Below, piece after piece: positions 10,766-27,727 of a DNA stretch of 37,126 nucleotides. Both the position numbers and the translations under genes were made by a program. Location of the stretch: the IMG/VR virus record IMGVR_UViG_3300027508_000018, positions 1-37,126 of that record; one strand, given 5' to 3'. The notes below the pieces were generated by a model that was given only the letters and a program-made list of their open reading frames with translations, searched no databases and was not told where the DNA came from. This DNA comes from a virus. The first letter of the stretch is position 1, and each line of letters begins with the position of its first letter.

Positions 10766-12269
10766 CGCCGACGACGAAATGGAACTGATGAGCCGGCTGT
10801 GGACGCCGGCCATCAAGGACGACCCGCTGAAGTTCGTGCTGTTCGTGTTCCCGTGGGGCCAGCCTGGCACACCGCTGGAACACTTCGACGGCCCGCGCAA
10901 GTGGCAGCGCCAGGTGCTGCAACGCATGGCCGACCACGTGAAGCAGAACAACGGCAAGATCGACTTCGACACGCTTAGGATGGCGACGTCATCCGGCCGC
11001 GGGATCGGCAAGTCGGCGCTGGTCAGTTGGCTGGTCATCTGGATGCTGACCACGCGGATCGGCTCGACAACCATCGTGTCGGCCAACTCCGAGGCGCAGC
11101 TTCGGTCGATCACATGGGCGGAAATTACCAAGTGGCTCAGCATGGCGCTCAACAGCCACTGGTTCGAGGTCAGCGCCACGCGGCTGATGCCGGCCAAGTG
11201 GCTGACGGAACTGGTGGAGCGCGACCTCAAGATGGGCACCCGGTACTGGGGCGTCGAGGGCCGGCTGTGGTCGGCGGAGAACCCCGACGCCTACGCGGGG
11301 GTTCACAACTTTGCCGGGGTCATGCTGGTGTTCGACGAAGCCAGCGGTATCGACGACAGCATCTGGTCGGTCGCGGCGGGTTTCTTCACGGAGAACACGC
11401 CGCACCGCTTCTGGCTGGCGTTCAGCAACCCGCGACGCAACAGCGGCTACTTCTACGAATGCTTCCACTCCAAGCGCGACTTCTGGGACACCAAAATCGT
11501 GGACGCGCGCACGGTCGAGCATACGGACAAGCAGGTCTATCAGCAGATCATCGACGAGTACGGCCCCGACAGCACCCAGGCCCACGTCGAGGTGTACGGT
11601 CAGTTCCCCAACGCGTCCGACGACCAGTTCATCGGGGCATCCACTGTCGACGACGCCATGCGCCGGCCGCAGCACAAAGACCCGTCGGCGCCGATTATCA
11701 TCGGCGTGGACCCGGCGCGGTTCGGGTCTGACAGCACGGTCATCGCCATCCGGCAGGGACGCGACATCGTGGCGATCAAGCGCCACAAGGGCGACGACAC
11801 CATGACGGTGGTGGGGCACGTCATCGACGCCATCGAGACGTACAAGCCGGCGCTGGTGGTGATCGACGAGGGGGGCTTGGGCGCCGGCATCGTCGACCGG
11901 CTGAAGGAGCAGCGGTACAAGATCAAGGGGGTCAACTTTGGGAACAAGTCGAAGAACCCGCTGATGTGGGGCAACAAGCGGGCCGAGATGTGGGGCGAGA
12001 TGCGGACCTGGCTGAAGGACGCGTCCATCCCGCTGGACCGTTACCTCAAGAACGACCTGACCGGGCCGATGATGAAACCGGACAGTAAAGGGACTATCTT
12101 CTTGGAAAGCAAGAAGGATATGAAGGCCCGCGGGCTGGCCTCGCCCGACGCGGCCGACGCCATCGCGGTGACCTTTGCGTTTCCTGTGGCGCATAGGGAA
12201 TATGTTGCAACCGCGCCCAAACGCGGCTATACTGCGGGAGGTATAGCAACATCTTGGATGGGGGCGTAA
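10746..12269 (+). CDS. terL: Terminase large subunit
   Basis: The 507-residue packaging motor and nuclease. The N-terminal ATPase has Walker A SSGRGIGKS (K89) and Walker B LVFDEASG (D197, E198). The C-terminal RNase H-like nuclease has GVDPARFGSD (D322), VVIDEGGLG (D374) and SPDAADA (D468, D471), giving the expected metal-binding acids. The start at 10746 overlaps terS by 20 bp; a second ATG at 10779 is possible. The last 18 residues (12213-12266) are repeated, in a diverged form, behind the HNH gene at 12753-12809, so the present C-terminus may have arrived with that gene. The circularly permuted assembly would suit headful packaging, but that is inferred. Confidence 0.96.
   Translation: MQTTRYSADDEMELMSRLWTPAIKDDPLKFVLFVFPWGQPGTPLEHFDGPRKWQRQVLQRMADHVKQNNGKIDFDTLRMATSSGRGIGKSALVSWLVIWMLTTRIGSTTIVSANSEAQLRSITWAEITKWLSMALNSHWFEVSATRLMPAKWLTELVERDLKMGTRYWGVEGRLWSAENPDAYAGVHNFAGVMLVFDEASGIDDSIWSVAAGFFTENTPHRFWLAFSNPRRNSGYFYECFHSKRDFWDTKIVDARTVEHTDKQVYQQIIDEYGPDSTQAHVEVYGQFPNASDDQFIGASTVDDAMRRPQHKDPSAPIIIGVDPARFGSDSTVIAIRQGRDIVAIKRHKGDDTMTVVGHVIDAIETYKPALVVIDEGGLGAGIVDRLKEQRYKIKGVNFGNKSKNPLMWGNKRAEMWGEMRTWLKDASIPLDRYLKNDLTGPMMKPDSKGTIFLESKKDMKARGLASPDAADAIAVTFAFPVAHREYVATAPKRGYTAGGIATSWMGA
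12213..12269 (+). repeat. terL 3'-end duplication, copy 1 (in use)
   Basis: The last 18 codons and stop of terL (residues APKRGYTAGGIATSWMGA). The DNA of the last 18 bp, TCTTGGATGGGGGCGTAA, is identical to copy 2 at 12753-12809; upstream the two copies have diverged. Confidence 0.85.
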
Positions 12270-12748
12270 TGTTGACGCAAAATGAACTATCAGATTTATT
12301 TGAATACCGCGACGGCCGTTTATACAGCCGCGTATTTCGAGGTAAGATTACGCCGGGAACGTGCATAGGAAACCGGCGTAAAGACGGGTATTTTCATGCT
12401 GAAATAAACAAACGAAAATACTTGTTACACCGGCTTATTTTTACATTAAAGCACGGCTACACCCCGGTTTTTATAGACCACATAAACGGGGACAGATCAG
12501 ACAACCGAATTGAAAATTTGCGCGATGTTACCCGTGGGCAAAATAACCGTAACGCTAAACGACGCAAAAACAGCAGATCGGGCGTAAAAGGGGTTTCTTG
12601 GTACGCTAAAGACCGCAAATGGGTTGTCCGTCTGTACATAGGCGGAAAAAATAAGTATTTTGGGTCTTTTGATTTACTTGAAGACGCCGAAAAACACGTG
12701 CAACAAATTCGTGAGCAGTTACACGGGCCATACGCACGACATTGTTGA
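12269..12748 (+). CDS. HNH homing endonuclease with AP2-like domain
   Basis: 159 residues from the ATG at 12269, which overlaps the terL TAA by one base; a TTG at 12254 is an alternative start. The HNH core is HRLIFTLKHG...FIDHINGDRSDNRIENLR, the type that pairs H, DH and N residues for metal-dependent DNA cleavage. The C-terminal part, from about 105 (GVKGVSWYAKDRKWVVRLYI), is AP2-like and likely binds DNA. The gene is clearly richer in A and T than its neighbours, as expected for a mobile element. It sits exactly between terL and a duplicated terL tail and looks like a free-standing homing endonuclease. Confidence 0.92.
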   Translation: MLTQNELSDLFEYRDGRLYSRVFRGKITPGTCIGNRRKDGYFHAEINKRKYLLHRLIFTLKHGYTPVFIDHINGDRSDNRIENLRDVTRGQNNRNAKRRKNSRSGVKGVSWYAKDRKWVVRLYIGGKNKYFGSFDLLEDAEKHVQQIREQLHGPYARHC

Positions 12749-19885: not shown

Positions 19886-20579
19886 TCAAATCAATGGCGC
19901 GCTTCGCCTGCTGAATGTTTTGGCTGAAGGTGAAACGCCGTCGGCGGAAACTTCACAAGACGCGCTGTACGCTCTTAACCAGATGATCGACAGTTGGAAC
20001 ACGGAACGGCTGTCCGTGTTTTCCACGCAAGACCAAGTAGAAACTTGGCCTCCAGGCACTATTTCGCGCACGTTTGGGCCGACCGGAGATATTGTAGGCG
20101 AACGTCCCATTTTGGTTGACGACAGCACCTACTTTCGCGATCCGGCTTCCGGCATCTCCTACGGCCTTAAGCTGATCAATCAGCAGCAATACAACGGCAT
20201 TGCGGTCAAGACCGTTACCAGCACATATCCGCAGGTACTGTGGATCAACATGACGTACCCCAACATTGAAATGTACGTCTATCCGGTGCCGACCAAAGTG
20301 CTAGAATTTCACATCGTGTCGGTCCAACCACTGACGCAACCCGCTAATCTGGCTACAACGCTGGCGTTTCCGCCCGGCTATCTGAGGTGTTTTCGCTATA
20401 ATTTGGCGTGCGAATTGGCTCCTGAATTTGGCATAGAGCCTACTCCGCAAGTGCAACGAATTGCGATGACATCTAAACGCAATCTCAAGCGCATCAACAA
20501 CCCTGACGACATCATGGCGCTGCCTTACAGCATTGTGGGCACTCGCCAGCGGTTTAACATTTTTGCCGGCAACTACTGA
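19869..20579 (+). CDS. Tail accessory factor, P22 gp4-like (portal adaptor)
   Basis: 236 residues. The protein begins TAGDQINGALRLLNVLAEGE and has DALYALNQMIDSWN at about 29-42, both typical of the gp4 head-to-tail adaptor family. It would attach to the portal ring after packaging and hold the DNA in. Its length is somewhat greater than the 166 residues of P22 gp4. The order gp4-like then gp10-like agrees with P22. The stop shares a base with the next start (TGATG). Confidence 0.88.
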   Translation: MTTAGDQINGALRLLNVLAEGETPSAETSQDALYALNQMIDSWNTERLSVFSTQDQVETWPPGTISRTFGPTGDIVGERPILVDDSTYFRDPASGISYGLKLINQQQYNGIAVKTVTSTYPQVLWINMTYPNIEMYVYPVPTKVLEFHIVSVQPLTQPANLATTLAFPPGYLRCFRYNLACELAPEFGIEPTPQVQRIAMTSKRNLKRINNPDDIMALPYSIVGTRQRFNIFAGNY

Positions 20580-22126
20580 TGAAGACGCCGATCCTTGGGT
20601 CCACCTATGTAGCCCGCAGCGTCAACGCTGCGGACAGCCGCATGGTCAACCTCTTTCCAGAACTTGTACCGGAAGGCGGCAAGGAGCCGGCGTTTCTTCA
20701 GCGGGCGCCAGGTTTACGGCTATTGGCTACAATAGGCACAGGCCCTGTGCGCGGCCTTTGGCAGATGGGCGCCTACGCGTATGTGGTGTCTGGCGACACG
20801 CTGTATAAACTCAACAGCAACTGGACCGCGACAACGTTAGGCACGATTGCCAACACCGGGCCTGTGTCCATGACGGACAACGGCACTCAGTTGTTTATCG
20901 CAGCCAACGGCCCCAGCTACATCTACAACACGTTCACAAACGTCTTCCAGCAAATCAATGACATCGACTTTCCTGGCGCTGTGACGGTTGGGTACATCGA
21001 CGGCTATTTTGTGTTTAATGAACCAAACAGCCAAAAGTTCTGGGTGACCAGCTTGCTGGAAGGTACGCAGGTAGACCCGCTGGACTTTGCCAGTGCGGAA
21101 GGTTCGCCTGACGGGCTTGTGGCTTTGATCGTCGACCACCGCGAAGTCTGGCTGTTTGGCACTACCTCCGTCGAAGTTTGGTACGACGCCGGCACCGCGG
21201 ATTTCCCGCTGCAACGCATCCAAGGGGCGTTCAACGAAATCGGCTGCGCCGCAGCCTATTCGGTTGCCAAGTTGGACAACGGCCTGTTTTGGTTGGGCGC
21301 CGACGCGCGCGGGCGCGGTATTGTTTATCGCGCAAACGGCTATAGCGGCCAGCGCGTTTCCACACACGCCGTTGAATGGCAAATCCAACAGTACGGCAAT
21401 TTGTCCGACGCAATTGGCTACACCTATCAGCAAGACGGCCATTCGTTCTATGTGTTGGTCTTTCCGTCAGCCAATACGACATGGGTGTACGATGTGGCTA
21501 CCCAAGCCTGGCACGAGCGCGCCGGCTGGGATAACGGCCAGTTTACCCGGCACCGCGGCAATTGCCAGATGAACTTCAACGACGAAATTGTCATCGGCGA
21601 TTACGAGAACGGCAACATCTACGCTTTTGATCTTGACGTGTACGCTGACAACGGCGCCGAGCAAAAATGGCTGCGGTCGTGGCGGGCGCTGCCTACTGGC
21701 CAAAACGACCTGCGCCGCACCGCGCACCACGCGCTTCAGTTGGATTGCGAAACTGGAGTGGGGCTAAGCACGGCGCCGTCTGACGACGAGGTATTCGACA
21801 GCGCATACTTGTCGGGCGCGCTTTTGGCTGAAGGCGACGATTTCTTAATAACTGAGAGCGGCGATTATATTTACGCCACCGCGACCAATCTTGCCACCAT
21901 GGTACCGCGCGCGATGCTGCGCTGGTCTGATGACGGCGGCCATACCTGGTCCAACGAGCATTGGAAGTCTATGGGCCAGATCGGGCGGTTTGGCTACCGC
22001 ACCATTTGGCGGCGCCTTGGCATGACACAGAAAATCCGCGACCGAGTGTACGAGGTGTCGGGCACTGACCCGGTTAAAATAACCATTTTGGGCGCCGAAC
22101 TGGCGATTAGCCCGACCAATGGCTAG
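20579..22126 (+). CDS. Packaged-DNA stabilisation protein, P22 gp10-like
   Basis: 515 residues; P22 gp10 has 472. The N-terminus GSTYVARSVNAADSRMVNLF and PGLRLLATIGTGPVRGLWQM are typical of the family (Phage_stabilise), which forms the tail hub between the gp4 ring and the needle. The middle is a repeated beta structure (e.g. YVVSGDTLYKLNSNW, FIAANGPSYIYN). The start overlaps the upstream TGA by one base and its end overlaps the next gene by 8 bp. Confidence 0.93.
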   Translation: MKTPILGSTYVARSVNAADSRMVNLFPELVPEGGKEPAFLQRAPGLRLLATIGTGPVRGLWQMGAYAYVVSGDTLYKLNSNWTATTLGTIANTGPVSMTDNGTQLFIAANGPSYIYNTFTNVFQQINDIDFPGAVTVGYIDGYFVFNEPNSQKFWVTSLLEGTQVDPLDFASAEGSPDGLVALIVDHREVWLFGTTSVEVWYDAGTADFPLQRIQGAFNEIGCAAAYSVAKLDNGLFWLGADARGRGIVYRANGYSGQRVSTHAVEWQIQQYGNLSDAIGYTYQQDGHSFYVLVFPSANTTWVYDVATQAWHERAGWDNGQFTRHRGNCQMNFNDEIVIGDYENGNIYAFDLDVYADNGAEQKWLRSWRALPTGQNDLRRTAHHALQLDCETGVGLSTAPSDDEVFDSAYLSGALLAEGDDFLITESGDYIYATATNLATMVPRAMLRWSDDGGHTWSNEHWKSMGQIGRFGYRTIWRRLGMTQKIRDRVYEVSGTDPVKITILGAELAISPTNG

Positions 22127-22676
22127 TCCTCCTAACGTAACCAATATCCCGGCCCCTCGGGTGCCGTTGATTGACGACCGCACTGGGTTAATGGCGCGCG
22201 AGTGGTACAGGTTCTTTTTCAACTTGTTCAATCTTACCGGCGGCGGGTCCAACACCGACACGCTCCAAGACGTGCAGCTAGGGCCTCCGTCAGAAGACCC
22301 AGCGGTCTTCGTGCAGGCGCTGCAAGCTGCCGCGCTAAACCCCACAGACACCTACGCAGCCAACGCTGACGCGGTCTTGCAGAGCCAAGTGCAGGCCCTA
22401 GCGGTCACGCCGCCACGCATCGACGAGGTGCCAGGCTGGCTTATCCTGCCGCGCGCCATAGCCGCCGGCGCGTCGCCTTTCACCTTTCAAAACACCACCG
22501 GGCGGTCTATAGATGTCATTGTGACGGGTGGCACGGTATCTGCCATTGCTTTCTCGCGCGACAACGTAACTTTCTATGGTGTCGGCTCGACTTCTGGGGT
22601 ATTTTGGTTGTCGCCTAATGATCGGTTGCGTGTAACATACACTGTTGCACCTACCTTAACCCTTGTGCCGAGGTAG
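22119..22676 (+). CDS. Tail protein, probably a fibre-joining component
   Basis: 185 residues. The N-terminal part RVPLIDDRTGLMAREWYRFF followed by FNLFNLTGGG is a motif I associate with small phage proteins encoded just before the tail fibres. The C-terminal half (VPGWLILPRAIAAGASPFTF and on) is beta-rich. It overlaps the gp10-like gene by 8 bp. Its place suggests an adaptor between tail hub and fibres. No tail-needle (gp26) protein is otherwise seen. Confidence 0.72.
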   Translation: MASPPNVTNIPAPRVPLIDDRTGLMAREWYRFFFNLFNLTGGGSNTDTLQDVQLGPPSEDPAVFVQALQAAALNPTDTYAANADAVLQSQVQALAVTPPRIDEVPGWLILPRAIAAGASPFTFQNTTGRSIDVIVTGGTVSAIAFSRDNVTFYGVGSTSGVFWLSPNDRLRVTYTVAPTLTLVPR

Positions 22677-22679
22677 AGC

Positions 22680-23381
22680 ATGGCCGTTGTTATCTCACTC
22701 TTTGCCGGCGTCGGAGGGCAATTTTTCGACAACAACGGCGACCCGCTTACGGGCGGCCTGATCTACACTTACGAGGCGGGCACCACGACCCCGGTAGCGA
22801 CCTACACGTCGTCTTCTGGCACGACACCACATGCCAACCCGATTGTTTTGGACGCTGCTGGCCGCGTAAACGAGATTTGGTTGGACGACCAGACAGCCTA
22901 CAAATTTGTGCTGAAGACCTCGACAGGCGTCACGATTGCGACTTACGACAACGTGTACGGCCCGGCGGCCAGTTTCAGCCCCGTCGTAAACGGCGATCTG
23001 TATGTCAACGGCAACGCCTACGTCAGCGGCAGGATTGCCATAGGCGGGACAAGTTCCGCGGTTAAGCTGTCCATCCTATCCACAGACGCCGTTCTGGTGC
23101 CCGTAGGGACTACCGCAGAGCGTCCTACAGGCGCGTCAGGGTATTTGCGGTTCAACACGACGTTGAGCAGCTTTGAAGGATACAATGGCACTTTGTGGGG
23201 TAGTATCGGCGGCGGCGCGGCTGGGGGCGGCACTGACAAGATATTCTACCTTAACGACCAGACCGTGACGACCAACTACACTATCCCAACTGGTCAAAAT
23301 GCAGGTACGTTTGGGCCAATTTCTGTCGCGAGCGGCATTACTGTAACCGTTCCGTCAGGCAGCACATGGACGGTGACGTAA
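22680..23381 (+). CDS. Tail fibre/tailspike protein with head-binding-type N-terminus
   Basis: 233 residues. The N-terminus (GGQFFDNNGDPLTGGLIYTY, then EAGTTTPVATYTSSSGT) is a phage tail-fibre attachment module, followed by ANPIVLDAAGRVNEIWLDD. From about residue 95 a repetitive beta region leads to an end VTVPSGSTWTVT. It lacks a large enzymatic beta-helix, so it is more likely a short fibre or a base for the next fibres. Directly followed by another fibre gene 1 bp later. Confidence 0.85.
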   Translation: MAVVISLFAGVGGQFFDNNGDPLTGGLIYTYEAGTTTPVATYTSSSGTTPHANPIVLDAAGRVNEIWLDDQTAYKFVLKTSTGVTIATYDNVYGPAASFSPVVNGDLYVNGNAYVSGRIAIGGTSSAVKLSILSTDAVLVPVGTTAERPTGASGYLRFNTTLSSFEGYNGTLWGSIGGGAAGGGTDKIFYLNDQTVTTNYTIPTGQNAGTFGPISVASGITVTVPSGSTWTVT

Positions 23382-23382
23382 G

Positions 23383-24033
23383 ATGCCGGTAAAACTCTCC
23401 TCCACAGGTGGCGGCAGCGTCACCCTAACCACGCCCAGCACGGCGACGGATTACACGGCTACGTTTCCGGCGAATACTGGGAATGTGGTGACGGATAGCG
23501 CAACTCAAACGCTTACCAATAAGACGCTGACAAGCCCGGTTATTACTGGCGCTTCTGTGTCATCTATGGCGAGCAGCGTTATTACTTCCGGCACTTCGCA
23601 AGCCAGCACCAGCGGCACCAGCATTGATTTTACCGGCATCCCGTCTTGGGTAAAGCGCATCACGGTAATGTTTAATGGGGTTAGTACGAATGGTACGAGT
23701 CCTGTAATTGTTCAGCTTGGCACCGGGGCTACGCCGACATATACAACCAGTGGCTATCAGAGTTTTGTTCTTTATAACGGTGGAACTACAAATATTACAA
23801 ATGGTTTAACAACCATAGGTATTGGCGCTTCCGATACTCGGTGGGGATCAATGATACTTTCCACATCTGGATCAAATAGTTGGACAGAAATTGTTGGGAA
23901 TGCAGTAGGTACTAACGGTGGGGCAGGCGGAGGCGGCATTACTCTTGGAGCCGCCCTTACCGCTATTCGTATCACAACGTCCAACGGCACCGACGCCTTC
24001 GACGCCGGGTCCATCAACATCCTGTACGAGTGA
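23383..24033 (+). CDS. Tail fibre protein A (shares blocks with fibre B)
   Basis: 216 residues. Regions: an N-terminal repeat typical of fibres (DSATQTLTNKTLTSPVITGA, 37-56), a 38-residue block at about 69-106 identical to fibre B (encoded at 24987), a variable Gly/Thr-rich centre, and a shared C-terminal end NGTDAFDAGSINILYE. Probably a trimeric receptor-binding fibre whose middle part decides specificity. Base composition falls to a more A+T-rich level in the variable centre, which hints at exchange. GTA-AG-ATG spacing places it close behind the previous fibre gene. Confidence 0.82.
   Translation: MPVKLSSTGGGSVTLTTPSTATDYTATFPANTGNVVTDSATQTLTNKTLTSPVITGASVSSMASSVITSGTSQASTSGTSIDFTGIPSWVKRITVMFNGVSTNGTSPVIVQLGTGATPTYTTSGYQSFVLYNGGTTNITNGLTTIGIGASDTRWGSMILSTSGSNSWTEIVGNAVGTNGGAGGGGITLGAALTAIRITTSNGTDAFDAGSINILYE
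23587..23700 (+). repeat. Fibre block repeat, copy 1
   Basis: These 114 bp match 25125-25238 except at 10 positions, all synonymous; both copies encode the same 38 residues, starting SGTSQASTSGTSIDFTGIPS. A second shared block, 23968-24033, ends the gene. Confidence 0.85.
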
Positions 24034-24041
24034 GGTAAGCA

Positions 24042-24542
24042 ATGCCCATAACCATCTCAGGCTCCACGGGTATCGCGGGTGTTGACGGCTCTGCCTCCAC
24101 TCCAGCCCTTCAAGGAACCGACACAAACACTGGCGTTTATTTTGGCGCTGATACGATTTCCTTCTCAGAGGGTGGCGCTCTTGTTGGGCAGTTTGATAGT
24201 AGCGCAAATTTCCAATTTAACTCCGGCTACGGCTCCGTTGCCACGGCGTATGGGTGCCGGGCTTGGGTGAATTTCAATGGAACCGGGACGGTAGCGATTA
24301 GGGCCAGCGGAAACGTCACTAGTATTACTGATAATAACACTGGCGATTACACGGTCAACTTTACTAATGCCATGCCTGATGCAAATTATGGTGTTGCAGT
24401 GGCTATTCAATCCCAAACAAGTGGCGCGGCGGGTTTGTCTAGGAATGTATCAGCGACAGCATCGGCATACAGATTGTTGACGACAGATAGTTCTGGGACT
24501 GCAATTGATGCCGCCTATCTAAATGTTTCAATTTTCCGTTAA
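24042..24542 (+). CDS. Tail fibre-like protein
   Basis: 166 residues. It opens ITISGSTGIAGVDGSASTPA and then GTDTNTGVYFGADTISFSEG, a module common to fibre genes, and continues as a beta-rich C-terminal domain ending DAAYLNVSIFR. It lacks the end shared by fibres A and B, so it probably has a different tip. Codon use is more A+T-rich than in the capsid genes. Confidence 0.78.
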   Translation: MPITISGSTGIAGVDGSASTPALQGTDTNTGVYFGADTISFSEGGALVGQFDSSANFQFNSGYGSVATAYGCRAWVNFNGTGTVAIRASGNVTSITDNNTGDYTVNFTNAMPDANYGVAVAIQSQTSGAAGLSRNVSATASAYRLLTTDSSGTAIDAAYLNVSIFR

Positions 24543-24554
24543 TAGGAGTTAATC

Positions 24555-24755
24555 ATGGACCAACGCATCATCTACCCAACAGAAGATGGTGGTGTTTCCG
24601 TCATCATTCCTACGCCTGATTGTGGGCTGACGATTGAAGAGATTGCCGCCAAGGATGTGCCAGAGGGTAAGCCATTCAAGATCGTGGATGTCGCTGACAT
24701 CCCGGCAGACCGCACCTTCCGTGGTGCTTGGACCTATGTGGAGGAAGATCAATGA
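24555..24755 (+). CDS. Small protein of the tail-fibre assembly type
   Basis: 66 residues, with the pattern IIYPTEDGGVSVIIPTP, TIEEIAAKDVPEGKPFKIVD and DRTFRGAWTYVEED. This pattern is familiar from small proteins next to phage tail fibres, often regarded as fibre-assembly partners; the exact role is unknown. AGGAG precedes the start. It overlaps the next gene by 4 nt (ATGA). Confidence 0.72.
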   Translation: MDQRIIYPTEDGGVSVIIPTPDCGLTIEEIAAKDVPEGKPFKIVDVADIPADRTFRGAWTYVEEDQ

Positions 24756-24985
24756 TCCGAATTGACATCACCAAGGCCAAGGTCATCGCGCATGATATGC
24801 GCCGATCCGCTCGTGCTGCTGAGTTTGTCCCGCATGATGAGGTGATTGCTAAGCGCATTCCCGGCACTGCGGAAGCGGAGGCAGAGGCCGCCCGTCAGGC
24901 AATTCGTGATAAGTATGCAGCGGTGCAAATTGCCATTGATGCGGCTACGACACCAGATGAAATCAAGGCTGCGTTAGGAGTTTAA
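24752..24985 (+). CDS. Small helical protein of the tail-fibre assembly type
   Basis: 77 residues from the ATG at 24752 (MIRIDITKAKVIAHDMRRSA), within an ATGA overlap with the gene above. The rest is an Ala/Glu-rich helical region (GTAEAEAEAARQAIRDKYAA) and a C-terminal DAATTPDEIKAALGV. A helical protein of this type regularly follows the one above in other phages, and both probably act in fibre folding. The upstream TTG at 24728 is not needed. Confidence 0.72.
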   Translation: MIRIDITKAKVIAHDMRRSARAAEFVPHDEVIAKRIPGTAEAEAEAARQAIRDKYAAVQIAIDAATTPDEIKAALGV

Positions 24986-24986
24986 G

Positions 24987-25586
24987 ATGTCCACCCTACA
25001 ATCCACCAACCTGAAGCATGAATCTTCTGCAACAAACAACATTGTCCTGGATGCGAGTGGAAATACCGCAATTCAAGGTACGTTGCGGGTTGGCGGAGTG
25101 GCCACGAACATTTATCCTCTGGTATCCGGCACCTCTCAAGCCAGCACTAGCGGCACTAGCATTGATTTTACCGGCATCCCTTCTTGGGTAAAGCGCATCA
25201 CGGTAATGTTTAACGGCGTCAGCACGAATGGCACGAGTAACAAGCAAATTCAGCTTGGGGACTCTGGCGGTTTTGAAACGACAGGATATTTGGGGGCAAG
25301 CGTTCAATTAACTGATGCTGCCTCTGTTAACGCGGCGACAATCACAACAGGCTTTGGTATTCGGTCTCCGCTTGCCGCCGATACGATAAATGGCGCCGTG
25401 GTCATCACAAACCTTACCAGCAACACTTGGGTTGCCCAAGGCGCGCTGACTGATTCTTCGCGCGGCGCCGGGTATCTCGTGGGCGGCGCAAAAGCTTTGT
25501 CTGATGTGCTGACGCAAGTTCGCATCACGACTGTCAACGGCACCGATGCGTTTGACGCCGGGTCCATCAACATCCTGTATGAGTGA
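24987..25586 (+). CDS. Tail fibre protein B (shares blocks with fibre A)
   Basis: 199 residues. The N-terminus (STLQSTNLKHESSATNNIVL) is a known fibre opening. From about residue 47 the 38-residue block identical to fibre A begins, then a variable middle (about 85-178), then the shared end RITTVNGTDAFDAGSINILYE. Two fibres that share frame regions but differ in the centre suggest an alternative receptor-binding pair. AGGAG precedes the start. No reverse transcriptase or template repeat is present, so variation is probably by recombination rather than a retroelement. Confidence 0.82.
   Translation: MSTLQSTNLKHESSATNNIVLDASGNTAIQGTLRVGGVATNIYPLVSGTSQASTSGTSIDFTGIPSWVKRITVMFNGVSTNGTSNKQIQLGDSGGFETTGYLGASVQLTDAASVNAATITTGFGIRSPLAADTINGAVVITNLTSNTWVAQGALTDSSRGAGYLVGGAKALSDVLTQVRITTVNGTDAFDAGSINILYE
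25125..25238 (+). repeat. Fibre block repeat, copy 2
   Basis: Pair of 23587-23700: 104 of 114 bases are the same and the encoded 38 residues are identical. The C-terminal shared block here is 25521-25586. Confidence 0.85.
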
Positions 25587-25596
25587 GGGTTAACCC

Positions 25597-25935
25597 ATGG
25601 CCGTAACCGTAACCGTCCTGATCCCGGCGAAGACCGCCGAGAACACGCAGACGACGCAATATACGTCGACCGGCGTGACCACAATCATCGACAAGTTCAC
25701 CGCGACCAACTACACCGGCACGGCCGCGACGATCAGCATCAACTTGGTGACGGGCGCTGGCGCTGCCGGCAACGACAACCTGATCGTCCAGAACAAGACG
25801 CTGCAAGCGGGCGAAACCTACACCTTCCCTGAGATTGTGGGCCAGGTGTTGTCCCCTAGCGCGTTCATCTCGACGATTGCCGGCACTGCGTCGGCGATCA
25901 ACATGCGCGCCAGCGGGCGCCAGGTGACGCAGTGA
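25597..25935 (+). CDS. Small beta-rich tail-region protein
   Basis: 112 residues. The segment TQYTSTGVTTIIDKFTATNY and the end TIAGTASAINMRASGRQVTQ resemble a small structural protein of phages that often follows the fibres. Composition points to an all-beta fold. Its stop overlaps the GTG start of the next gene by 4 nt (GTGA). No function is known. Confidence 0.7.
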   Translation: MAVTVTVLIPAKTAENTQTTQYTSTGVTTIIDKFTATNYTGTAATISINLVTGAGAAGNDNLIVQNKTLQAGETYTFPEIVGQVLSPSAFISTIAGTASAINMRASGRQVTQ

Positions 25936-26474
25936 AGCATTTTCTCTGCGTAGCCGAACACGTCGACGTTACGCCGGTACTGCGCGAATTGGCGGTGCAG
26001 CCCGAACTATGGGACCAGAACACCCTTCGGACTACACATCCAGAAACCGCCCACAGCGCGGTGAACGACATCTGGCTGTGGTTTAACGAGGTGTCCGATG
26101 ATCTTTCCGCCGTTACCAACGACATCCAGACGCGCCCCTATCCTGCATGGACGGCGCTGCCGTCGCTGCGCCGGCTGGTGCTGGACCTAATTCGCCGCGT
26201 TGATGGAGTTCAGTTGGGGCGCGCGGTCGTCACCAAGCTGCCGTCAGGCGCCATCATATACCCGCATGTCGATCGCGGCACGTCAGCCGAATTTTACACC
26301 CGGTACCAAATTGCGTTACAATCCCGCCCCGGCGCGCTGTTTCACTGCGAAGACGAAACCGTCAACTTTCGCCCTGGCGAAGTTTGGTGGGTCAACACCC
26401 GCGTGACACATTCCGTCGTAAACAACAGCGACGATGACAGGATTGTCTGCATCGTAGATATTCGGAGCGGCTGA
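25932..26474 (+). CDS. 2-oxoglutarate/Fe(II) oxygenase, Asp/Asn hydroxylase-like
   Basis: 180 residues. The metal-binding triad is visible: H112 and D114 in YPHVDRG, and H160 in NTRVTHSVVNN; R170, ten residues later, is well placed to bind 2-oxoglutarate. This matches the aspartyl/asparaginyl beta-hydroxylase-like cupin family. It would hydroxylate an unknown protein side chain or small molecule. The start is GTG at 25932 in a GTGA overlap with the upstream stop. It is paired with a GNAT-like gene 2 bp downstream and lies within the tail genes. Confidence 0.85.
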   Translation: MKHFLCVAEHVDVTPVLRELAVQPELWDQNTLRTTHPETAHSAVNDIWLWFNEVSDDLSAVTNDIQTRPYPAWTALPSLRRLVLDLIRRVDGVQLGRAVVTKLPSGAIIYPHVDRGTSAEFYTRYQIALQSRPGALFHCEDETVNFRPGEVWWVNTRVTHSVVNNSDDDRIVCIVDIRSG

Positions 26475-26475
26475 C

Positions 26476-26931
26476 GTGATTACGGCGCAAGTTGAACCTT
26501 GGAGCGAGTTCCTTGTTGACGCAGTAGAACTCTTTCCCGCGCATTGGGAAGAGTTGGCGCTGAACAAGGACAAGGTGCCGCTGTCCATGCGGTACGACGT
26601 GTACGCGGCCAGCGAGGCCGCCGGCGAACTCCTTGTCGTGACGCTGCGGCAAGACGCGCGGCTGGTCGGGTATTTCGTCGGTTTTGTCCTCCCCGGCCTG
26701 CATTACAGCACTTGCCTGACCCTTCAGATGGACATCTTCTGGACCCACCCTAACATCCGCGGGCGCATGGAAGGCGTAAAGCTTTTTCGGGCGGTAGAAG
26801 CTGAGGCCAAGCGCCGAGGCGTCCAGCGCATGTTTTTTGGGTCCAAACTGCACAAAGACGCTTCTAGGCTGTTTGAGTATTTGAAAATGCAGCCTGTTGA
26901 GGTGTATTACACCAAGTGGATTGGAGACTGA
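26476..26931 (+). CDS. GNAT-like acetyltransferase
   Basis: 151 residues. The pattern fits a GNAT fold: beta strands GELLVVTLRQDARLVGYFVG, then a strand TLQMDIFWTHPNIRGRMEGV with the loop-helix of the acetyl-CoA site, then LFRAVEAEAKRRGVQRMFFG. The usual Q/RxxGxG/A loop is altered to RGRMEG. The start is GTG at 26476. Similar acetyltransferases occur near ejection-protein genes of other podoviruses. The substrate is unknown. It ends 5 bp before the next gene. Confidence 0.78.
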   Translation: MITAQVEPWSEFLVDAVELFPAHWEELALNKDKVPLSMRYDVYAASEAAGELLVVTLRQDARLVGYFVGFVLPGLHYSTCLTLQMDIFWTHPNIRGRMEGVKLFRAVEAEAKRRGVQRMFFGSKLHKDASRLFEYLKMQPVEVYYTKWIGD

Positions 26932-26935
26932 CGCC

Positions 26936-27727
26936 ATGGTCGGAGCAGCAGCTATTGTAGGTGGCGCCGCCTTAATCGGCACAGTCGGCAGCATGTACGC
27001 GGCGGACAAAGCGGCAGGAGCGCAGAAGAGAGCCGCGCGCGACGCGGCTGCCGCTACCTCCGAGGCCGCGCAGCAGTCCATCGACGCCCAGGAACGGATG
27101 TTCGGCAAACAGGTCGAACTGCAAGAACCATTTCGCCAAGCCGGCCTGTCCGCGCAAAACAGGCTGATGGATTATTTGGCCTTAAGCGAAAATAAAACCG
27201 CGCCCGGCTATGGTAAATACGCCCGCGACTTTAGCATGGCCGACTATACTGCCGACCCCGGCTACGGGTTTCGTGTCAGCGAGGGCATGAAGGCGCTTGA
27301 ACGGTCAGCGGCCGCGCGCGGCGGCCTTCTGTCTGGCTCTACGCTCAAGGGCATCACGCGGTTCGGGCAGGACACGGCGTCTGAAGAGTACCAGAACGCG
27401 TTCAACCGCTACCAGGTGAACCGCGCCAACCAGCTTAACCCGCTGCAAAGCCTTATGGGCGCGGGCCAGACCAGCGCAAACGCTCTGACTTCGGCGGCCG
27501 GCCAAACCGGCGCCGGGATGGGCAGCACTTACATGGGTATGGGTGCCGGCCTGTCAAACGCTGCGCTGGCCGGGGGCGCTGGCCGCGCGTCCGGCTACAT
27601 AAACATGGCCAACGCATTAAACCAGGGCCTTAGCACCGGCGCCAATCTGTACATGCAGGGGCAGTATCTCGGCGGGGTAAACGAGCTTAACGCAGCTAGA
27701 ACTGCGTATTACAACCGCCAGGTGTAA
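26936..27727 (+). CDS. Ejection (DNA transfer) protein, P22 gp7-type position
   Basis: 263 residues. It starts with a hydrophobic Gly/Ala helix (GAAAIVGGAALIGTVGSMYA), then a long Ala/Gln-rich helix (KAAGAQKRAARDAAAATSEA), then GFRVSEGMKALERSAAARGG, a combination I associate with phage DNA-transfer/injection proteins. The C-terminal part is Gly/Ala/Asn-rich. It would be packaged in the head and ejected to form part of the channel across the cell envelope. The ATG at 26936 is chosen; an upstream frame overlaps the GNAT gene. Confidence 0.82.
   Translation: MVGAAAIVGGAALIGTVGSMYAADKAAGAQKRAARDAAAATSEAAQQSIDAQERMFGKQVELQEPFRQAGLSAQNRLMDYLALSENKTAPGYGKYARDFSMADYTADPGYGFRVSEGMKALERSAAARGGLLSGSTLKGITRFGQDTASEEYQNAFNRYQVNRANQLNPLQSLMGAGQTSANALTSAAGQTGAGMGSTYMGMGAGLSNAALAGGAGRASGYINMANALNQGLSTGANLYMQGQYLGGVNELNAARTAYYNRQV

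Follow-up and report, generated by a model that had tools for sequence, protein, structure and literature searches.

Constant edges as probable reassortment points in a fibre-like domain family of environmental phages

Introduction

Two neighbouring fibre-like genes, which we call A and B, share a block of identical protein sequence and a nearly identical C-terminal end, while the stretch between these two parts has diverged strongly. How did this pattern arise, and are the constant parts merely preserved, or do they serve as points at which fibre segments are exchanged? A first-pass annotation of the DNA favoured an old duplication or transfer in which the constant part came under strong purifying selection, and also raised the idea that the constant blocks act as recombination points for the exchange of unrelated middle parts.

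Both genes are encoded in a 37,126-base virus record (IMG/VR IMGVR_UViG_3300027508_000018), which we refer to as the window. It carries a P22-like podovirus gene set, including the portal (PHROG 156), scaffold, major head protein, head closure Hc3 and DNA ejection protein. A and B are flanked by the genes for head closure Hc3 (20579-22126) and DNA ejection (26957-27727) and adjoined by two further fibre-like genes (22680-23381 and 24042-24542), with the start codon of A directly following the stop codon of the gene upstream. Given this position amid virion genes, and the tail fiber annotation found on some isolate homologues, A and B are tail fibre candidates. Their parts are listed in Table 1; loci of relatives are denoted by L and a number.

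Table 1. Parts of the fibre-like genes A and B and the gene located between them (window coordinates)
Feature	Position	Strand	Basis or remark
Fibre-like gene A, 216 aa, stem and C-terminal domain	23383..24033	+	Open reading frame; PHROG 29482 match
Stem of A, residues 1-68	23383..23586	+	Varies within a population that is otherwise almost identical
N-terminal constant block of A, 38 residues	23587..23700	+	Repeat shared with B
Hypervariable centre of A, homologous to the B centre but divergent	23701..23965	+	Family profile
C-terminal constant block of A, including stop codon	23966..24033	+	70-nt repeat, 87% identical to 25519-25588
Fibre-like gene of a family other than that of A and B	24042..24542	+	PHROG 11355, tail fiber protein, E=5e-20
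Fibre-like gene B, 199 aa	24987..25586	+	Open reading frame; AGGAG motif 5' of the start codon
N-terminal constant block of B	25125..25238	+	Versus A block: 91% DNA and 100% protein identity
Hypervariable centre of B	25239..25518	+	Also carried on different stems by L010-L012 and L014
C-terminal constant block of B, including stop codon	25519..25586	+	Repeat shared with A

Results

A and B share one C-terminal domain

The profile of PHROG 29482, a family that carries no function assignment, matches residues 69-214 of A (E=1.3e-7) and residues 52-197 of B (E=4.4e-10). B is also matched weakly by PHROG 18673 (tail fiber protein, E=8e-4), and a Pfam scan of both proteins returned no family. As first noted, the 38 residues of the N-terminal block are identical in A and B, and their DNA differs at 10 of 114 nucleotides; all ten differences are synonymous and lie at third codon positions. 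The ends are likewise nearly identical, with 20 of the last 21 residues the same. Within the window, blastn recovers the block pair with E=5e-42, so the similarity is not due to chance.

By contrast, the claim that the middle parts are unrelated turned out to be wrong. BLASTP aligns A and B over the entire C-terminal domain (47% over 195 columns), and in the family alignment the middles are approximately 24% identical. A profile of the middle only, built without A, detects the middle of A among 1000 shuffled copies with E=5e-9; the pairwise alignment of the two middles is moderately significant, with 9 of 2000 shuffles scoring equally high. Furthermore, the AlphaFold2 models (pLDDT 79.1 for A and 83.6 for B) predict an identical order of 11 strands in the two C-terminal domains. 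As judged from sequence comparison and predicted structure, the middles are divergent homologues.

A family with constant edges and a hypervariable centre

The domain comprises about 150 residues, is predicted to be all-beta in A and B, and occurs commonly among tailed phages from the environment, in many cases with two to four copies per locus on differing stems. A scan of IMG/VR with B yielded at least 577 confirmed relatives; relatives in isolates come from phages of Rhizobium, Aminobacter, Rhodobacter, Rhodovulum, Pelagibacter and Pseudomonas. In 162 loci, some of which overlap on the same contig, we found 254 domain hits, all of them ending at most three residues from the C-terminus and never two in one open reading frame, and 74 of these loci hold two to four copies.

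In the layout of the domain, constant edges (the first ~38 and the last ~21-33 residues) enclose a centre that spans some 80 residues and is hypervariable. In the family profile, mean information amounts to 3.1-3.8 bits in the first 38 columns and 3.1-4.0 bits in the last 33, and drops to 1.3-2.4 bits per column in most of the centre. When 226 distinct proteins were clustered by their parts, they fell into 34 stem clusters, the largest of which may be chained, and 190 centre clusters. Ten of the 11 multi-copy stem clusters are paired with several centres, and five centre clusters occur with several stems.

Among 84,980 bacterial and archaeal species genomes, the domain is present in two contigs only, both derived from metagenome-assembled genomes (MAGs), and the family therefore appears to be mainly virus-borne, which says nothing on whether the phage is strictly lytic. 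The two contigs (L238 and L239) belong to an Opitutae MAG and a Patescibacteria MAG, and are perhaps viral sequences that were binned along.

Pfam searches across 118 domain copies gave nothing beyond single weak matches, a profile search of PDB sequences pointed to no known solved fold, and none of the papers in the library searched contained the motif strings of the domain. Since Foldseek returned no PDB match at E<=0.001 (best 2.7e-3, TM 0.32-0.34), we do not claim a fold name. In BFVD, 101 matches were obtained at E<=0.001; among the matches listed, most are unnamed or uncharacterised and a few are named fibre proteins.

The blocks share more recent ancestry than the centres

One explanation for the shared blocks is an old duplication followed by strong purifying selection on them, with no special role for recombination. 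The estimates for the block (dN=0, dS=0.51) are consistent in part with purifying selection, and block conservation spans the whole family. The silent sites, however, tell a different story: the A and B blocks differ synonymously at 10 of 36 codons, far less than the middles (12 of 17), in which dS is saturated and yields no estimate, and less than typical pairs of the family (0.53-0.64). Among 119 distinct copies, pairs with a centre identity below 40% have a mean N-block synonymous difference of 0.64, and just 0.8% of them lie at or below 0.35; the value for the A/B pair is 0.28. As selection on protein cannot itself hold silent sites alike, the blocks of A and B, on the evidence of these sites, are of more recent common ancestry than their centres, by way of recombination or conversion.

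Long exact matches in the DNA point in the same direction. Across 23,576 pairs with a centre identity below 45%, exact runs of at least 40 nt occur 21 times in the N block and 50 times in the C block, compared with none in 30,000 codon-shuffled pairs and none in the real centres. When codons were shuffled inside GC3 bins, a control that accounts for GC3 and does not cover host codon bias in full, such runs numbered 5 against a mean of 0.05 in the N block and 16 against a mean of 1.0 (maximum 5) in the C block. Likewise, copies from the same locus are more alike at the silent sites of their edges than GC3-matched copies from different loci, both in the N block (0.545 versus 0.610; 0 of 200 draws) and in the C block (0.478 versus 0.525; 0 of 200 draws). 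The centres are not clearly more alike (0.603 versus 0.615; 24 of 200 draws).

Thus, the part of the original interpretation that invoked purifying selection on the block is supported in part, but selection alone is insufficient and the relationship is not simply one of old duplication. With the low silent divergence of the blocks, the exact runs in excess of shuffled controls and the direct chimeras described below, duplication and selection by themselves are already disfavoured, and we consider them an unlikely account.

Natural chimeras switch at or inside the blocks

Relatives whose centres and stems have been swapped were indeed found, and the switch points fall at the constant blocks or within them. 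Together with the excess of exact runs, they support the earlier proposal that the blocks act as recombination points. L008 and L015 are approximately 100% identical in DNA from -420 through most of the N block, mostly 33-50% identical in the centre and 93-100% identical in the C block, and they diverge again downstream. Compared with the window, L015 has the stem and C block of B around a different centre (29% aa identity). In L010-L012, a B centre (97% nt) sits in the position of A on a different stem, and in L009, the DNA upstream and downstream of A is kept around a different centre. In L014, the end of the A stem (83 of 85 nt) and the opening ~27 nt of the A block are joined to a B-type block and a B centre (86% aa); the informative block sites of this locus split accordingly, and one to three of them are discordant, depending on which B-type parent is chosen.

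A finer pattern is seen in L006: across 8.2 kb, its substitutions relative to the window consist almost entirely of 14 in the A stem and three B-type markers at the start of the A block. The informative sites of the block split cleanly, with three B-type followed by seven A-type, and L004 has one of the same three markers. The pattern in L006 looks like a short conversion tract, but could also be an assembly effect.

Could the swaps and the similarity of A and B in general be artefacts of metagenome assembly from repeats? All close relatives are metagenome contigs, in which short repeats can yield chimeric assemblies, and the markers in L006 and L004, within otherwise near-identical sequence, are the kind of single short tract to which this concern mainly applies. 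The comparisons of L008 with L015, L009 and L011, however, rest on several hundred nucleotides of flank, several loci have different centres inside matching flanks, and the window types of A and B recur in several contigs (L003-L007). We therefore regard an assembly origin as highly unlikely. Least probable of all is that the blocks are conserved as DNA (for RNA structure, as a recombinase or endonuclease target or for regulation) with protein identity secondary: the genome has an HNH endonuclease gene (12254-12748), which shows no link to the blocks, but the family keeps the block protein, yet ~0.53-0.64 of the comparable positions carry different synonymous codons, so that no fixed DNA motif is visible, and neither an invertible arrangement nor a retroelement was found.

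Exchange also extends beyond the blocks. In L005 and L006, which are otherwise nearly identical to the window, 14 substitutions fall within 63 nt of the A stem (23398-23460); stems thus recombine as well, and the blocks are not the sole switch points. In a separate comparison with L007, which is 96% identical to the window, substitutions cluster at 22750-23000 and 24250-24750. As these clusters lie in the two adjoining fibre-like genes, both of them also look like exchange hotspots.

Discussion

Having weighed these alternatives, we find it likely that A and B are paralogous short fibre-like proteins whose stems, centres and C-terminal edges are reassorted at the constant edges, with the centre as the putative receptor contact. 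The DNA of the constant edges is similar enough between copies to provide homology for recombination, and reassorted products exist in relatives. The edges would maintain the fold, while the centre would contact the receptor, and reassortment would thereby alter host recognition. Recombination may be carried out by homologous recombination enzymes of the phage or the host, either during co-infection or between copies inside one genome, such that A and B could supply sequence to one another and to co-infecting phages. Along with receptor binding, we infer that A and B may be displayed jointly. A bolder version, which we put forward tentatively and with more doubt than confidence, is that a multi-copy genome represents a built-in archive, in which the constant edges allow conversion between paralogous fibre domains, without a retroelement. 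If so, a single phage lineage would be able to renew its fibre tips with no second phage involved.

The swapping of adhesin segments at conserved motifs is already known; what is new is a protein family without assigned function that does so. At the gp38 adhesin locus of T-even phages, hypervariable segments are flanked by conserved motifs and swapped by recombination (Tetart et al. 1998, J Mol Biol 282:543, as cited in PMC3797505 and PMC12529663). The chimeras and permutation tests reveal the same principle here. However, gp38 has alternating glycine-rich motifs, whereas in A and B a single beta domain is bordered by one constant block on either side, and this domain often occurs in multiple copies within a genome. 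As Pfam and PHROG scans gave no gp38 match, the two work alike, but A and B are not members of the gp38 family. Flexible gene modules with flexible receptor-binding genes have also been described in environmental phages from cryoconite (Bellas et al. 2020, PMC7468147). There, the exchanged units are described as gene variants between phages, whereas here the switch points lie within one domain, copies of which are also found inside one genome.

The targets of diversity-generating retroelements, such as Mtd, likewise have a variable C-terminal region on a fixed scaffold, and one relative, in Pseudomonas phage AH02, is annotated as 'major tropism determinant'. In A and B, by contrast, whole homologous centres vary. 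Within the window we found neither a template repeat, with self-blastn of A and B returning the A/B blocks alone, nor a credible reverse transcriptase: a [YF]xDD scan gave three matches without other support, and none of the 30 window proteins scanned against PHROGs was identified as such. We therefore rejected a retroelement. On repeat arrangement and strand, we also rejected an invertible tail-fibre cassette of the Mu/P1 type: the constant blocks repeat in direct orientation, the inverted repeats at 22000-27500 are all weak (72-80%), and each of the 219 distinct domain copies lies on the + strand of its locus.

On this reading, the domain, to which no function has been assigned, is likely a receptor-binding tip open to swapping, and it is widespread among environmental phages. 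The start and end of its variable part are now marked, and the exchange of fibre tips becomes traceable from sequence in uncultured phages.

The surroundings of A and B offer some further observations. The G+C content of the fibre genes (23383-25586) is 52-53%, compared with 60% for the genome, which is consistent with exchange. Inside the virion cluster, downstream of B and past one small open reading frame, lies an aspartyl/asparaginyl beta-hydroxylase-like gene (25932-26474; PF05118, E=3e-13), and next to it a GNAT acetyltransferase-like gene (26476-26931; PF00583, E=4e-5).
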